The notes beneath the pieces are model-generated. The model was given only the letters and a program-made list of their open reading frames with translations, was not told where the DNA came from and made no database searches. Made by a program: the position numbers and the translations under genes. Source: Gammaproteobacteria bacterium (GTDB lineage: Bacteria > Pseudomonadota > Gammaproteobacteria > Magnimaribacterales > Magnimaribacteraceae). Taken from it: a stretch of 64,000 nt of DNA. The stretch lies in the NCBI GenBank assembly GCA_004214065.1, contig SGZM01000002.1, positions 1 to 64,000 of the forward strand, in the 5' to 3' direction. Shown here in pieces: positions 9,763 to 19,986 of the stretch. Within the stretch, counting starts at the first letter, position 1; each line of letters starts with the position of its first letter.

Positions 9763-12700
9763 ATGAAGAAGATAACTAATCTCTTGTTACTTGTATCCGC
9801 AATTTATCTTGCAATCGTATTGATTTTTTCTATAGCGCTGACAAACCAAAAATCATTTACTTTTCTAACTAATCTGATCTTTGTGGACAATGTAGATATA
9901 AAGTTTCAAGATTCAAGATGGCACCCAAGTAAACCCTTTCTACACCTTGAAAAATTTATTTTAAGATCTGATAAAGAGTACTTAATTTTAAAAGATATTA
10001 AGATTAATTTCTCTCTCTTGTATCCTTTTTCCAATGCACTCATCTCTAAAATTGAAGCAAATAAAACTACATTTCTTTACGAAAATGCTACCGAAACAGA
10101 TACAGAGATTAACTATCTGTATTTATTAAATTCCTTCTTTGGTTCGATTAACTTTAAACAATTTAAAGTCCTGGATAGTTATTCCACAGAACTCTTTAGT
10201 GGCAGCTTAGAAAGTTCATTATCTTCAAAATCTCCATATTTCAAGCTCATTGGAAAAGATGGAATTAACGGAAGATTTCAAATACATTTGATCTCTTCGG
10301 TAAACTCAAATGGAAATCTAATTAACGGCCATATTACCTCAACTAACTTTAGGTTAGATAGCGTACTAACAAAGAATTTTTGTTCAAAATGCGAACAAAA
10401 TCTTATTTTCACGACTGATTCAAGATTTTCATTATTCAATAATAAACTCATTGATTTATATGGAAATCTAGACTTTTCGTTAGAAAAAGAGATTTTTGAT
10501 GTGAGTTCTATATCAGCAAGTTTTAAGCTAGTAGATTCAGAGCAAAAGATAATACAGGTAGGTTCATATTTAAATCTAGATAAAGATCTAGTATTACCAG
10601 ATTTTTTACTTAACCTTAATAAACAAAAGCTAGAAATTAATATACCGAAGGTAGATATTGAAAACTTTAGCTCGTTAACTCAACTATCTAGTTTCAAAAA
10701 ATTAGGAGTAAACAGTTTAAAGGGTATCGTTAATAAAATAACTATAAAGCCATATACCCCAGATAATTTCATTAGAGGATCTTTCAACAATATAGATATA
10801 GAAAATAAATCATTTGATATTAAGGGCTTACAAGGAGATTTTAGTTATCAATCTAATAATTTCTATATAAATTTCGATTCTCCTTTTGTAACATTAGATT
10901 CAAAGAATCTATTCGACTCAATCTTAGACTTATATGATTTTCGGTCTCAAGTTTCATTTGCTTCGACTGAGGGAGTTACCAAAGTATTTTCTTCTCCAGT
11001 CTCTTTCATATTTAATAATGAGATTCTTGTAGGCTCTTTTTCCTTCGATTCCAGCCCACAAAATAGTTTAGGGCATATTTCTTTATTATTGAGCTCTAAG
11101 AAAATCTCAAAAGAAGTTGCTTTCTCGCTCTTTCCTAATACTTCTTATTTAAATTCAACTAAAACCTATCTTGAGGATTTAATTACATGTGGGAGTGTAA
11201 ATAATCCGATGCTTTTATTGAGATTACCCATAGATAGAAAATATGATTTTTCTTCTGCTTCTTTCTCATTAATAGGTAGTTCTGATGATTTATGTGCAAA
11301 TATTTATGGGTTTGATTTAAAAAATATTGAAATTGATTTTAGTATGCAGGATTTTTTATTTGAAGGAACAGTGGAGGAAGGTAATTTTTATGGTTCCAAA
11401 CTAAAGACAAATTTATCTATCTCTAATGATAAAAATTATACGTTTGAAGTTGAAGGAGATGTTGAAGGTCCATTTTCTAGTTTAATAAGATTAATTAATA
11501 ATGAGGATCCTGATCTAAATGATATAACAGGTACACACCAAACGAAATTCCGTTATAGGTCACCTTGGAAAAGCATAAATTCTTTATTGGATAAAGAATC
11601 AAACCTTTTCATTGAATCAGAGGTAAGGCAGGCTAGTTTGAACTTCGATCAATTCGAGTATTCATTTGAAAATATCTTCTCTTCAGTTAGCTATGATAGT
11701 AGTTTAGGAATAAAGGATGGCTTCATATCTCTTAAGCTTAATGATATACCTTTAGTTTTTGATCTGGATAAAAAAGCTTCAGAAACAAGACCTTCTATTT
11801 CTATTTTTTCTGTAAATGAGATTATTAATTTTAAAAAATTATTTCCAAAATCTTTAAGTACGAATATAACAGGTAACTCTTTAGCTGAAATAAAGTTAGA
11901 AGTCCCTTCATATCTAAGAGGAACAAAGGTACCCAAACCGCGAATATTATTCTCATCAAACTTAAATGGAGTCAGGATAGATATACCAAAGCCATTTTAT
12001 AAGACTAAACGGCAAGAAATTGGATTGGACTTAATCTACTCTCCTGCATTGAACAAACCAGTTTCAAGAATAAACTTTACATTCGGCAATATCTTGAGAG
12101 GCAAATTGGATTTATCCTCTTCCCTTGAGCAGGGTTTTCTAATAGCCGGTAAGGAAAAACAAAGTATTTCAATTGAAGAAGGTGTTTTATCTTTGATTGG
12201 AAGTTTTGAAGAATTTGATTTTAAAATTTTAGAATTACTTAACCTGAATCAAGGCAGGCAAGAAGTAGATTTAACAATAAAAAATTTAAAAATTGGTAGG
12301 TTATTATTGTCTGATACCTATTTTGACGGAGTAGATATTAGATCTGTTAGATCGGATGAATACAATGCTTTTGAGCTATCAAACAGGAATTTCAAGGGTA
12401 TATTCTCTTTTCCTAAATTACCAAATGAGATTCCACTTTTTTATTTTGATTTTATTGATTTAGAACTGTCTGGCGATAATTCATCTAGTTCTTTTCTATC
12501 AATCTACAATAATCTTAATACCAAGATAAGATTTGATGCTAAAAAGATTATCCTTAACTCCGAAAATTATGGTGATTGGAGTTTTGACCTAATTCCGGGT
12601 AAAGATGTCCTGACTCTTTCAAATTTATCAGGTAAATATAATAAGTGGGGCGTGAAAGCAAACAAGGATGAAGTTTCATCTCTGACTATATCTAAAGAAG

Positions 12701-13377
12701 GTCTCGGGTGGAAAACTGACCTTATTACCAAGGTATACTCAGGCTCACCTGAAAAAGCTTTCAAGCAAATCGGAGTAGAAACTAATTTCGAGATGGACAT
12801 ATTTAATATGGAAACAGATGTAACATGGAATTCTCTTCCATGGAATTTCGATCCTACCGAGGTATACGGTTTGATTGAATTAGATATAAAGGGTTTACTA
12901 ATTCAAGATCGTGAAGATATCCAAACACCCAATAACCTACTTAGATTGATTAACATATTTAACGTAACAGACTCTTTTGAGAAGGTTACTAATCTAGATT
13001 TTCGGAAATTATATAAATCAGGTTTTGGGGCAGACTCAGTTAAAGGTTCTTTAAAACTAACAAAAAATAACATAATTATTAAAGACCCTTTAACTTTTAA
13101 AAGTGGCTCTAGTGAGTTTAAGTGGAATGGCGAAGTAAGGAAAGGAGATAAGGGTAGCTTAGATGAAATAGATCTTGAGGTGGTAATGACCTTACCATTA
13201 AAGGAGTATCTTCCTGCATATGCTCTTATTCTTGGAGGTCCGGTAACCGCTGGAGTAGTTTACATTGCTGGTAAGGCATTTCAGAGAAACTTAGATCAGC
13301 TTAGTTCAGGAAAATGGTTTATAAAAGGCACTTTGAAAGAACCGAGAACTGATTTTGAAGGTTGGTTTGAGAATTAA
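9763..13377 (+). CDS. yhdP: AsmA-like intermembrane lipid-transport protein YhdP
   Basis: A 1204-residue protein with one N-terminal membrane helix (residues ~5-27) followed by a very long beta-rich periplasmic region. This is the layout of YhdP (E. coli ~1266 residues), a bridge-like carrier moving phospholipid toward the outer membrane. The C-terminal signature is visible: FKWNGEVR, MTLPLKEYLPAYALILGGP, AGVVYIAGKAF, then GKWFIKGTLKEP. In Pseudomonas and E. coli, maf/rng lie between mreD and yhdP; here they are absent. It converges on rpoN with a 24-base gap. Confidence 0.9.
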   Translation: MKKITNLLLLVSAIYLAIVLIFSIALTNQKSFTFLTNLIFVDNVDIKFQDSRWHPSKPFLHLEKFILRSDKEYLILKDIKINFSLLYPFSNALISKIEANKTTFLYENATETDTEINYLYLLNSFFGSINFKQFKVLDSYSTELFSGSLESSLSSKSPYFKLIGKDGINGRFQIHLISSVNSNGNLINGHITSTNFRLDSVLTKNFCSKCEQNLIFTTDSRFSLFNNKLIDLYGNLDFSLEKEIFDVSSISASFKLVDSEQKIIQVGSYLNLDKDLVLPDFLLNLNKQKLEINIPKVDIENFSSLTQLSSFKKLGVNSLKGIVNKITIKPYTPDNFIRGSFNNIDIENKSFDIKGLQGDFSYQSNNFYINFDSPFVTLDSKNLFDSILDLYDFRSQVSFASTEGVTKVFSSPVSFIFNNEILVGSFSFDSSPQNSLGHISLLLSSKKISKEVAFSLFPNTSYLNSTKTYLEDLITCGSVNNPMLLLRLPIDRKYDFSSASFSLIGSSDDLCANIYGFDLKNIEIDFSMQDFLFEGTVEEGNFYGSKLKTNLSISNDKNYTFEVEGDVEGPFSSLIRLINNEDPDLNDITGTHQTKFRYRSPWKSINSLLDKESNLFIESEVRQASLNFDQFEYSFENIFSSVSYDSSLGIKDGFISLKLNDIPLVFDLDKKASETRPSISIFSVNEIINFKKLFPKSLSTNITGNSLAEIKLEVPSYLRGTKVPKPRILFSSNLNGVRIDIPKPFYKTKRQEIGLDLIYSPALNKPVSRINFTFGNILRGKLDLSSSLEQGFLIAGKEKQSISIEEGVLSLIGSFEEFDFKILELLNLNQGRQEVDLTIKNLKIGRLLLSDTYFDGVDIRSVRSDEYNAFELSNRNFKGIFSFPKLPNEIPLFYFDFIDLELSGDNSSSSFLSIYNNLNTKIRFDAKKIILNSENYGDWSFDLIPGKDVLTLSNLSGKYNKWGVKANKDEVSSLTISKEGLGWKTDLITKVYSGSPEKAFKQIGVETNFEMDIFNMETDVTWNSLPWNFDPTEVYGLIELDIKGLLIQDREDIQTPNNLLRLINIFNVTDSFEKVTNLDFRKLYKSGFGADSVKGSLKLTKNNIIIKDPLTFKSGSSEFKWNGEVRKGDKGSLDEIDLEVVMTLPLKEYLPAYALILGGPVTAGVVYIAGKAFQRNLDQLSSGKWFIKGTLKEPRTDFEGWFEN

Positions 13378-15414: not shown

Positions 15415-16107
15415 TTAAGTGGCACTCACCTTGGCATTAATTGACTTAATTATCTTTCTTTCCAAGTAATCATAATAAATTGAATCAGCCTCTATTCTTA
15501 AACCCTTTTGATTAAATAAAGCATTACCCTCTAGAAGAATTCTATTGTTATCTAACAATTTAAGGCTATCTGCAGTTCCATTATTTTCAGTATCTTTTTT
15601 ATCTTTAAACTCGCCTTTGATAAATTCAAGATACGGTTCAAGATCTTCGTTAAAACTGTACTGGAAGCCTTGAGATGCTATATGAGATTGATCAAGATAT
15701 AGATCGGTTTCTGTGTCACTCTCTATAATTTTATTGACTAGGTTAATTTTAAGGCTTTCAGTCCTTAAATATGCTGAATTTTTGTTTGTTATAAAATTGA
15801 AATCTACAGATTTTTTGAAATCTATTATTTCTTCATTTTGATCATAGAGGGCAAAATTTGAGGAAATTCTAGATTTCTTAGATTTCGACTCCAATTCAGT
15901 TGATACATTACTTAGCTCGAAGACACCTTGTTGATACATGTTCATCTTATCCCCAGTCATATATATTTTTAGATTTTTCTGGCTAATTGAAAAGGACGGG
16001 CTATCAAGTTCTATCTTTAATTCTTCAATAAATTCTATTTTATTATTATCTGATGCGTACAGTATGAAGTTTAAAAAAAATATAAAAGACAGTATGAGTG
16101 TTTTCAT
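15415..16107 (-). CDS. LptC/LptA hybrid-like LPS transport protein
   Basis: A 230-residue exported protein standing where lptC and lptA normally form two genes. Residues 1-18 are a hydrophobic signal peptide ending LYA. Residues ~44-165 read like LptC: a G..M..Y stretch, then FALYDQNEEII, YLRTESLKINLVNKIIESD and IASQGFQY, which parallel LptC's 'TTDNAQINLVTQDVTSED' and 'SSGL'. Residues ~183-230 read like the OstA/LptA repeat: ILLEGNALFNQKGLRIEADSIYYD parallels LptA's 'VVLTGNAYLQQ...GDKITY'. It probably forms the periplasmic LPS bridge with LptB upstream partners. A plain LptC with an extended tail, and lptA encoded elsewhere, is the alternative. Confidence 0.75.
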   Translation of the reverse strand: MKTLILSFIFFLNFILYASDNNKIEFIEELKIELDSPSFSISQKNLKIYMTGDKMNMYQQGVFELSNVSTELESKSKKSRISSNFALYDQNEEIIDFKKSVDFNFITNKNSAYLRTESLKINLVNKIIESDTETDLYLDQSHIASQGFQYSFNEDLEPYLEFIKGEFKDKKDTENNGTADSLKLLDNNRILLEGNALFNQKGLRIEADSIYYDYLERKIIKSINAKVSAT

Positions 16108-16109
16108 TC

Positions 16110-17069
16110 CTATACTAAGCCTGCTTCTACAAGGTCATGCATTCTTATAATTCCCTCAGGAACTTGTTTACTGTTAACAACTGCCAAAGAATAAATTTTA
16201 TGCTCCTGCATTATCTCTAAAGCTTCTATAGCCAAACTGTCATTAGGTATGATTTTTATTTTCTCAGACATAAATTTAGATATAGGACTTTCTAGAGGAT
16301 CTTTCACTGAGTTTAGAGCTCTTCTGAGATCTCCGTCAGTAAAAATACCTTTAAGATTCCCTTCTTCTATAACTAATGCAACACCCAAGCCCTTTTTGCT
16401 TACTTCAATCAATGTTTTTGATAATGTTGTTTTTGGGGAAACTTTAGGTAAGTCTTTTCCTTTAGTCATGAGATCATTAACTTTTGTAATAAGCCTTTTT
16501 CCTAATTTTCCTCCAGGATGAGATTTTGCAAAATCTTCTCTACTAAAATTCTTAGCCTCTAGTAGGGCTACTGCTATTGCGTCTCCTAGTGCTAAAGCGG
16601 CTGTTGTACTTGTTGTTGGAGCCAAATCTAAAGGACATGCTTCATCCGCTATACCTGTATCCAGTGATAGGAAAGAGTTTTTGGCAATTGTTGAATTTTT
16701 TGAACCTGTAATAGAAAAAAAATCACACCCAATAGATTTCAAATAGGGTAGGAGTGCTATTACTTCTTCGCTTTGGCCCGAATGAGAGAAAATCAACACT
16801 TTATCATTTCTGCCTATCGATCCAGCATCTCCATGCAAAGCTTCTCCTGCATTTACAAATGCCGAAGGTGAACCTGTGCTAGATAAGGTTGCAGAAACTT
16901 TCTTTGCAATATGACCAGACTTACCAATTCCTAAAGTAATAATCTTACCTTTAGTATTAAGAAGTTTGTCACATAATGTATTGAAGTCCTTGCCTAAAGA
17001 CTTAGCTAAGATTTCTAATCCTTTTGCTTCAATTTTAATTGTTTTTTTAGCTGACTTAAGATGATTCAT
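16110..17069 (-). CDS. kdsD: Arabinose-5-phosphate isomerase
   Basis: A 319-residue enzyme making D-arabinose 5-phosphate from ribulose 5-phosphate, the first step of Kdo synthesis. An N-terminal SIS sugar-isomerase domain carries GIGKSGHIAKKVSATLSSTG, NAGEALHGDAG and SHSGQSEE; two CBS domains follow from ~residue 205 (VNDLMTKG, GIFTDGDLRR, AVVNSKQVPEGIIRMHDL). Its partner kdsA is at 51515. The Kdo-8-phosphate phosphatase gene kdsC, which normally follows kdsD, is absent here. The next gene starts 2 bases later. Confidence 0.97.
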   Translation of the reverse strand: MNHLKSAKKTIKIEAKGLEILAKSLGKDFNTLCDKLLNTKGKIITLGIGKSGHIAKKVSATLSSTGSPSAFVNAGEALHGDAGSIGRNDKVLIFSHSGQSEEVIALLPYLKSIGCDFFSITGSKNSTIAKNSFLSLDTGIADEACPLDLAPTTSTTAALALGDAIAVALLEAKNFSREDFAKSHPGGKLGKRLITKVNDLMTKGKDLPKVSPKTTLSKTLIEVSKKGLGVALVIEEGNLKGIFTDGDLRRALNSVKDPLESPISKFMSEKIKIIPNDSLAIEALEIMQEHKIYSLAVVNSKQVPEGIIRMHDLVEAGLV

Positions 17070-17086: not shown

Positions 17087-18034
17087 TTAGAAGGCATAAT
17101 ACAATGAAAAGAAATATGAACTTAGAAATACAAAGCTTAAGAAAAAGCCAGCCTTCTGTTCTTTTTTTGAAAGCATAAAAATATAAAATGCGAATAATAA
17201 TGTGACTAAGAAGAGTAAAATTAAAAGAGGAGACCATTCAGAATAACTCCAGCCGTAGGACATTTCAGGCCTCATGAAAAGACCGGGTATGGCTAGTACA
17301 CATAAACCATTAAATATGTTTGAGCCAATCAAAGTACCCGATACAGCTTCATACCTTCCTTTTAGTGCTAAAGAAACTGATGCAGCAATTTCAGGCAAGC
17401 TAGTTCCAATTGCCAAAACTGTATAGCCAATAAATAGTTGCCCCAAGTTATATTGATCTAAAATTAGATTAGCACCATGAGTTATTAGCCAAGCTGCAAA
17501 GACAAGTACAATTAAAGAGAGCAGAAGCTTAAAAAAAACATTTTCTTCAACTTCTGCAAAACTATCTATCTCTTCGGCATTACTATTTTTGTACCAAAAA
17601 GATATTACTGAAATCAAACAGCAAAGAAGTATTGCTGATGTGTAGATGCTAAAAGGATTAGTGGCGATCAAAAACCAAACCAAAAGGCTTGATATTAATA
17701 GTATTATTAAATTTATGAGTATTGACTTATCTTGACTGATATTAAGTTTTTTATAGGCAAGAATTAGCAACATAGAACCAAAAACTAGAGATAGGTTTGC
17801 TACATTTGAACCAATTACATTTCCTATGACCATAGTCCCTTTGTTTTCCATTGAAACGAAAAAAGTAGTTAACATTTCAGGAGCTGAAGTTCCAAAAGCA
17901 ATTACTGTTGATCCTATGAAGAAAGGAGAAAGGCCAAATTGTTTTGCGCTTAGGACAGAATATTTCTCAAGCTTTTCAGCACTTGTCCACATTAAGGCAA
18001 TTCCAAAAGTTATGGCAGAAAAGGCTAATATCAT
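17087..18034 (-). CDS. yrbG: Calcium/sodium antiporter YrbG
   Basis: A 315-residue inner-membrane exchanger of the CaCA superfamily with about ten hydrophobic helices. The two inverted alpha repeats are clear: FGTSAPEMLTTFFVS with GNVIGSNVANL, and IGTSLPEIAASVSLA with GTLIGSNIFN, carrying the ion-binding acidic residues. It heads the yrbG-kdsD-lpt-rpoN operon, as in E. coli. The upstream 80 bases are shared with the divergent mlaC. Confidence 0.95.
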   Translation of the reverse strand: MILAFSAITFGIALMWTSAEKLEKYSVLSAKQFGLSPFFIGSTVIAFGTSAPEMLTTFFVSMENKGTMVIGNVIGSNVANLSLVFGSMLLILAYKKLNISQDKSILINLIILLISSLLVWFLIATNPFSIYTSAILLCCLISVISFWYKNSNAEEIDSFAEVEENVFFKLLLSLIVLVFAAWLITHGANLILDQYNLGQLFIGYTVLAIGTSLPEIAASVSLALKGRYEAVSGTLIGSNIFNGLCVLAIPGLFMRPEMSYGWSYSEWSPLLILLFLVTLLFAFYIFMLSKKEQKAGFFLSFVFLSSYFFSLYYAF

Positions 18035-18074
18035 AAATTTATTCTAAGTTCTCAAGGAGAACTAATCCAGATGA

Positions 18075-18080
18075 TATAAT
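18075..18080 (+). promoter_or_regulatory. Candidate -10 element upstream of mlaC-murA
   Basis: A perfect TATAAT lies 35 bases before the mlaC start in the short divergent gap with yrbG. No good -35 sits 17 bases upstream, so this is a likely but unproven promoter for the mlaC-murA-hisGD run. Confidence 0.4.
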
Positions 18081-18114
18081 AAAGGTAAAAGAATCCAATT
18101 CATATTTATCAATT

Positions 18115-18723
18115 ATGAAAACACTTTTAAGAAACATTAGTTTATTAGTATTTTTAACTATTTATCCGCTCTATAACTTTGCAAATGAAATCTCTGCACA
18201 TGACTATGCGGCTAAGGTTCATGACGATATCATTCAAATAATTCAAACTAAGAATGCTTTATACATCGAAGATCCTGATAAATTTACAAAAGAGATTAGT
18301 GAAGCTTTTAGTCCGATAGTTGACTTCAATAGGATTGCTCGAAACGTAATGGGTAAACATTATAAGAAATCAACAAATACACAAAGGATTGCTTTTGCAG
18401 AGGCCTTTAAGACAAGTTTACTAGATACTTATTCAGGTACTCTAGTGGAATTTAAAGACGAAAAGATCGTAGTTCTGCCTCCTGAAAATACTTCAAAATC
18501 CAAGAATAAGGCTAAAGTAAAAATAGAGATCATAACTTCTTCAAGTATCTATCCTGGAACATACAGCATGTACTTAGACAAAGAGGGGAAATGGAAAATT
18601 ATCAACATAGTTGTGAATGGCATAAATCTGGGTAAGACCTTCCGAAGTCAGTTTTATTCCTTAATGGAAAAAAATGAAGAAAATATTAATCTAGTCATAG
18701 ATCAATGGATTGCTTCGGTCTAG
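18115..18723 (+). CDS. mlaC: Periplasmic phospholipid carrier MlaC (orphan)
   Basis: A 202-residue exported MlaC/Ttg2D-family protein that ferries phospholipids between membranes. A signal peptide spans residues 1-23 (ending NFANE), and the core shows FSPIVDFNRIARNVMGKHYKK, then LLDTYSGTLVEF, and the C-terminal GKWKIINIVVNGINLGKTFRSQF. In E. coli and Pseudomonas it lies within mlaFEDCB next to yrbG; here mlaF, mlaE, mlaD, mlaB and ibaG are all missing, and murA starts 3 bases after it. Confidence 0.95.
   Translation: MKTLLRNISLLVFLTIYPLYNFANEISAHDYAAKVHDDIIQIIQTKNALYIEDPDKFTKEISEAFSPIVDFNRIARNVMGKHYKKSTNTQRIAFAEAFKTSLLDTYSGTLVEFKDEKIVVLPPENTSKSKNKAKVKIEIITSSSIYPGTYSMYLDKEGKWKIINIVVNGINLGKTFRSQFYSLMEKNEENINLVIDQWIASV

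Positions 18724-19986
<1,263 letters not shown>

Follow-up and report, generated by a model that had tools for sequence, protein, structure and literature searches.

The mlaC locus

This locus raises the question of which inner-membrane partner MlaC could have where the genes for the MlaFEDB complex are missing beside it. The window, the whole stretch of 64,000 nucleotides that was analysed (contig SGZM01000002.1, order Magnimaribacterales), carries mlaC at 18115–18723 on the forward strand. The gene is intact, and its 202-aa product, a predicted periplasmic lipid carrier, matched the Pfam MlaC family (PF05494) with 144 bits (E = 4e-42) against a curated cut-off of 26 bits. The AlphaFold2 model, built on a 20-sequence alignment, had a pLDDT of 85.9 and matched crystal structures of the Ttg2D/MlaC family with query-normalised TM-scores of 0.72–0.77.

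The E. coli K-12 record, in which kdsD-yrbG and mlaF-mlaE-mlaD-mlaC-mlaB-ibaG-murA form two divergent halves, served as the reference for gene order. By this comparison the locus has lost mlaF, mlaE, mlaD, mlaB and ibaG, as an initial annotation of the sequence had claimed. That annotation had also described a preserved yrbG/mla junction and an mlaC placed directly before murA, and both features were seen. The gene yrbG (17087–18034, reverse strand; Na/Ca exchanger family, PF01699, 150.6 bits) diverges from mlaC across an 80-bp junction (18035–18114) that corresponds to the site of mlaF-mlaE-mlaD in E. coli. Downstream, murA (18727–19986, forward strand; EPSP_synthase domain, 367 bits) begins 3 bp after mlaC, with mlaB and ibaG missing between them. 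A further conserved neighbour, kdsD (16110–17069, reverse strand), encodes SIS and CBS domains.

Between kdsD and lptB, an lptC-like ORF of 230 aa (15415–16107, reverse strand) scored over the cut-off for LptC and just over the cut-off for the LptA/LptD_N domain, the latter a weak match at its C-terminus. No separate lptA or kdsC lies around this ORF, where the E. coli gene order would place them. In 6 of 13 stretches read from the order, the ORF in the lptC slot was merely 125–142 aa long.

Retention of MlaA and MlaC across the order

The order, a group of bacteria with small genomes, was sampled with 101 genomes from 19 genera and four families, 39 of them near-complete. MlaC was found in 90 genomes and MlaA in 82, each including all 39 near-complete ones, while neither the MCE/MlaD domain (PF02470) nor MlaE (PF02405) matched in any of the 101, or in any of the 39; the E. 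coli controls were positive for both. PF02470 covers PqiB and LetB as well, and a canonical mlaFED, PqiB or LetB elsewhere in the order genomes was thus ruled out. In terms of the six Mla components, MlaA is present in 39/39 near-complete genomes, MlaD and MlaE are each found in 0/101, and MlaF and MlaB are absent at the locus when the window is compared with the E. coli order.

The initial annotation had held that MlaD and MlaE were lost, that a complete mlaFED operon elsewhere would speak against this, and that MlaC would need another inner-membrane partner. The search for such an operon found none, and the order-wide absence of MlaD and MlaE bears out the need for a different partner. Its reading of a deletion scar was accurate as to the missing genes, but the state is shared by the whole order and is neither local nor fresh. 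Its description of MlaC as an orphan has to be given up, as the order has retained MlaA. The window's own assembly (1.13 Mb, 73% complete) gave no MlaA match, which its incompleteness can explain.

The mlaC stretches read, 13 in number and drawn from the four families, all have murA as the neighbour of mlaC; in one of them (L087) an ORF of 94 aa that overlaps mlaC lies between the two genes. Among these 13, yrbG was recognised beside mlaC in the four stretches of the window's own family only.

Loss of the surrounding operon might suggest that MlaC itself is a decaying remnant. This is hardly credible, given that MlaC occurs in every near-complete genome, that no MlaC match listed among the order genomes has an internal stop, that the protein is predicted to have the MlaC fold, and that a set of residues is conserved order-wide.

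An RND permease tracks the loss of MlaE

A permease of about 825 aa of the MMPL/RND type was taken as the candidate partner, since its presence follows the loss of MlaE and its gene is linked to mlaC or mlaA in other genomes. Its distribution was determined in 184 genomes drawn evenly from the class, using an RND profile from alignment A1 (E ≤ 1e-60). The scores split into members, with a best match of at least 558 bits, and weaker matches of at most 336 bits. Two genomes had matches in two pieces: G192 (559 and 408 bits) was counted as a member and G212 (336 and 253 bits) as a non-member.

The MCE domain was absent in 20 of the 184 genomes; 12 of the 17 such genomes outside the order keep MlaC and 13 keep MlaA. 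MlaE was absent in 23 genomes (20 listed as such, with G260, G263 and G268 obtained by elimination) and MlaC in 14. The RND subfamily was present in all 17 genomes with MlaC and without MlaE, which belong to 15 families, compared with 16/153 genomes having both proteins (Fisher test, p = 1.1e-14, relatedness ignored; 2.3e-14 if G212 is included). Again ignoring relatedness, p was 1.7e-12 without the window's own order, and 1.9e-9 when the genomes that seeded the profile were also removed (10/10 versus 16/153). Where MlaC was absent, the subfamily occurred in 0/6 genomes without MlaE and in 1/8 with it (G179, which has the RND and MlaE). Two of the 17 genomes with MlaC and without MlaE, G263 and G268, still have MCE matches. 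One further genome of the class sample, G147, showed an MlaE match (E = 6e-41) and no MCE, MlaC or MlaA match.

In a quickly built tree of MlaC, the 12 rows without MlaE from outside the order required nine changes, at least four of them forced by well-supported branches, so MlaE was likely lost several times. Next to a copy of mlaC, the RND was found in two (G201 and G242) of the 16 genomes that have MlaC, MlaE and the RND, and the RND-linked mlaC copy of G242 groups with the MlaC of the order (SH-aLRT 99, set of 20).

MlaC itself was compared between genomes with and without MlaE. The MlaE-positive controls came from 20 stretches, of which L282–L284 were dropped for lack of an MlaC ORF by profile; among the 17 retained, those from G130 and G222 belong to genomes that also carry the RND. 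An order-type signature (E. coli positions N165, N/D172, D/N189 and W197) was present in 34/36 order rows, in 4/12 other rows without MlaE and in 0/18 rows with MlaE (the 17 controls and E. coli). This signature reads as a mark of the clade, not as proof of a change of partner. The MlaD-contact residues of E. coli MlaC were rejected as a diagnostic, being not specific: most also vary in the MlaE-positive controls.

Linkage of the RND to mla genes

Outside the order, 14 genomes have MlaC and no MlaE, and in 6 of them the RND adjoins mlaC and/or mlaA. G134 has kdsD facing away from RND-mlaC-murA, which puts the RND in exactly the mlaFED slot of E. coli; this RND is 76–77% identical to loci titled Gammaproteobacteria. 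RND, mlaC, mlaA, yrbG and kdsD lie together in G224, and the arrangements elsewhere were mlaA-RND-mlaC in G146, lolA-RND-mlaA-yrbG in G183, a second mlaA followed by the RND in G123, and mlaA-RND-mlaC in G268, which has an MCE match and no MlaE match. The remaining eight genomes (G102, G103, G137, G141, G192, G243, G260 and G263) showed no such adjacency in what was read, which covered about 1.5 kb on each side of the RND in G102, G103, G137, G260 and G263. In G260 the RND adjoins a YrbG-family gene, on a different contig from mlaC. The LolA gene of G183 (209 bits), directly 5' of RND-mlaA-yrbG (noted at L104:2530–5719), hints at a possible link between a lipoprotein carrier and the RND.

Named genomes were scanned with a second RND alignment (A2); at least 552 relatives were confirmed and 80 were kept. 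Of these 80 loci, 20 have mlaC and/or mlaA no more than about 1 kb from the RND, 12 of them both genes. The linked loci came from records titled Deltaproteobacteria or Desulfobacteraceae, Nitrospirota, Planctomycetota (or its orders), Candidatus Lambdaproteobacteria and 'Proteobacteria', and in many cases their mlaA, mlaC and RND genes overlap or are separated by a few bases. Pfam confirmed MlaC in L175, L194, L213, L233, L266 and L270, and MlaA in L189, L233 and L270. For the other 60 loci, some of them on short contigs, the profiles found no mla neighbour; they include five from Marinobacter, three from Microbulbifer and three from Alcanivorax, as well as L271, where no RND ORF was recognised by the profile. 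Mapped on a quickly built RND tree of the 80 rows, mla adjacency needs at least nine changes. The unlinked loci and the 16 genomes of the class sample (possibly also G212) that have the RND together with both MlaC and MlaE imply that the RND has, or had, another role.

A different partner had been named in the initial annotation, which pointed out that YhdP is encoded nearby. A yhdP gene does lie about 5 kb from mlaC (9763–13377, forward strand; PF13116, 159 bits), and ORFs of 1203 and 1224 aa, which may be YhdP, occupy a like place in two of four own-family stretches. MlaC could then pass its lipid on to a bridge protein of the AsmA-like kind, for instance YhdP or TamB. We regard this as very unlikely: what ties YhdP to MlaC is proximity, whereas for the RND there is co-occurrence as well as adjacency.

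The RND of the order

The RND homologue of the window's own genome has 824 aa and is encoded outside the window (L151:4886–7360, genome G000, contig C39). It is 45% identical to the mla-linked RND of G134, 44% to that of G224, 42% to that of G183 and 38% to that of G146. Against the MMPL family (PF03176, cut-off 20.5 bits) it scored 66.9 bits and the G134 protein 98.6 bits.

Membership of the RND subfamily was confirmed in 35 of the 39 near-complete order genomes, counting copies cut at contig ends (G041, G042 and G063) and one in pieces (G083). It was unconfirmed in four, G057 having no MMPL match and G072, G074 and G077 weak ones. Weak MMPL scores do not exclude the RND, as the genus g17 illustrates: its scores are weak, yet an RND lies about 23.5 kb from mlaA in all five genomes. 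These copies were located by reading along the mlaA contigs, and that of G087 runs off its contig.

No RND adjoins mlaA or mlaC in the own-order stretches read. This would fit a passive carrier, with MlaC moving between MlaA and the inner membrane without a dedicated partner and the RND a bystander. We consider such a shuttle unlikely in view of the 17/17 co-occurrence, the repeated operons and the presence of the RND in 35/39 near-complete genomes of the order.

The best matches of the RND among solved sequences were HpnN. HpnM is an MlaC-family protein that is paired with HpnN in hopanoid transport, and the window MlaC scored nearer to HpnM (NCBIfam TIGR03481, 52.8 bits; cut-off 160.1) than to the NCBIfam MlaC model (38.4 bits), both values being far below the cut-offs. 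These matches raise the idea of a pair of the HpnM/HpnN type, in which MlaC and the RND would export a special lipid (hopanoid-like or of another kind) in place of phospholipid, with MlaA serving something else. Two results make this distinctly improbable: the RND reached 90.3 bits against a cut-off of 751.85 for the HpnN model (TIGR03480), and 12 of the 80 named loci have MlaA next to RND and MlaC. The RND likewise stayed below the cut-off of the HAE3 RND subfamily (TIGR00921; 171.8 bits, cut-off 351.9).

The order has a second type of RND, of about 765 aa (L162–L166), which was rejected as the partner at 23–25% local identity to the mla-linked RNDs. In all five of these loci (L162, L163, L164, L165 and L166), exported-looking proteins of 260–266 and 385–422 aa are encoded directly upstream, suggesting another lipid or outer-membrane export cluster. 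Near the 825-aa RND of the order, bolA was found close by in three loci checked from three families (L151:3629–8492 in the own genome), and in the stretches read, a CoA-transferase-like gene lies 3' of the RND in three of the four families. That the first of these genes might be a retained ibaG was ruled out, the gene being bolA.

Structure of the RND and a candidate docking loop

The predicted model of one mla-linked RND (L199; pLDDT 88.2) matched the folds of MmpL3/4/5, NPC1-type proteins and HpnN, which are lipid-handling RNDs, and that of Patched. With transmembrane helices numbered by the usual RND layout, the Asp of TM10 is kept in 127 of 128 aligned members and a His four residues on in 125. 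The matching position of TM4 is Leu, Ile, Met, Phe or Val in 127/128 and Asp in five outgroup RNDs.

Residues 509–540 of the L199 model form a disordered loop (pLDDT < 50). At least 25% of the loop residues are Asp or Glu in 119 of the 128 members, and the loop is absent from the five outgroup RNDs, which have some ten residues there. Loop Phe residues had on average 3.00 acidic residues within three positions, compared with 2.04 in shuffled loops; the observed value was reached by 0 of 1000 shuffles, with related sequences counted singly. The loops were delimited by alignment columns, with a raw cut for G056, G035 and G040.

In E. coli, the cleft of MlaC is predicted to take both the C-terminal tail of MlaA (I241, L245 and I248) and the β6–β7 loop of MlaD (F118 and L123), a prediction backed by mutational and binding data (PMC10245069). 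The K-12 stretches concerned read IQDDLKDI in MlaA and GFEDPEL, including FEDPEL, in MlaD. The MlaA tails of the order, for example DDFIDDMEDFLID, resemble both the E. coli docking stretches and the RND loop (27 rows from 24 genomes; the L078 MlaA ORF of G141 was left out). From these likenesses at the sequence level, we infer that the acidic/aromatic loop of the RND may act as a docking arm for MlaC. All 12 MlaA proteins of the three-gene operons are without the acidic tail, while their RNDs keep the loop, so a shared motif fails to explain docking at the outer membrane in those cases.

A proposed MlaA–MlaC–RND shuttle

Taken as a whole, the evidence makes it probable that a lipid shuttle of MlaA, MlaC and the RND stands in place of MlaFEDB in the order. 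The outer-membrane and periplasmic parts would be MlaA and MlaC, and the inner-membrane station would be the MMPL/HpnN-like permease of about 825 aa. MlaC would dock on the RND, probably through the disordered acidic/aromatic periplasmic loop, much as it is predicted to dock on the MlaA tail and the MlaD β6–β7 loop. Lipid would then pass between the MlaC pocket and the RND, with the proton motive force, acting through the conserved Asp and His of TM10, presumably replacing ATP. As to direction, HpnN and MmpL proteins export, and NPC2–NPC1 is a precedent for an import-like hand-over.

A wider proposal, to which we give about even chances, is that MlaA–MlaC–RND constitutes a distinct kind of intermembrane lipid shuttle, proton-driven and present in several phyla, that it has replaced the ABC/MCE complex several times in the Gammaproteobacteria, and that it is the sole Mla-type shuttle left in this order. 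In that proposal MlaC could swap partners because MlaA, MlaD and the RND share an acidic/aromatic docking motif. A natural Mla version with an RND in place of the ATP-driven MCE half would separate the role of MlaA and MlaC from that of the inner-membrane engine. RND transporters would then take part in the general lipid homeostasis of the outer membrane, and the order would offer a natural system for testing the direction of transport.

Comparison with known systems

No description of an MlaA–MlaC–RND system was found in the open-access papers searched. The Mla pathway has been attributed to all Gram-negative bacteria, the role of its ATPase activity being unclear (PMC11289387), and its direction of transport has been described as controversial (PMC10665443). 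In the latter work, Grasekamp et al. applied the Pfam models used here to a survey of all Mla components; the section consulted makes no mention of MlaA and MlaC without MlaEFD.

The system proposed here shares with the Mla pathway of E. coli (MlaA, MlaC and MlaFEDB) its MlaA and MlaC homologues and the ancestral position of mlaC beside murA. It differs in that the order gave no MCE or MlaE match and that an RND is proposed instead of the ABC/MCE complex. Veillonella also has a variant that drops canonical Mla parts, but there the opposite half is kept, MlaEFD with a long MlaD and without MlaA and MlaC (PMC10665443). The Mpc chimera of Brucella is another rearranged Mla-type system; unlike the present one, it combines MlaE/MlaD-like parts with a PqiC-like lipoprotein and is without MlaC (PMC12436622).

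HpnM/HpnN likewise joins an MlaC-fold carrier to an MMPL-type RND, and HpnN provides the nearest solved sequences to the RND described here. However, the proteins of the order score far below the HpnN and HpnM cut-offs, MlaA is present in the order, and the RND subfamily has the acidic loop and is without the Asp that the outgroup RNDs carry in the N-half (TM4). In the pairing of NPC2 with NPC1, a soluble lipid carrier also passes its cargo to an RND-fold permease, in keeping with the NPC1-type fold matches of the RND model, although that system is eukaryotic, handles sterols and uses an unrelated carrier.
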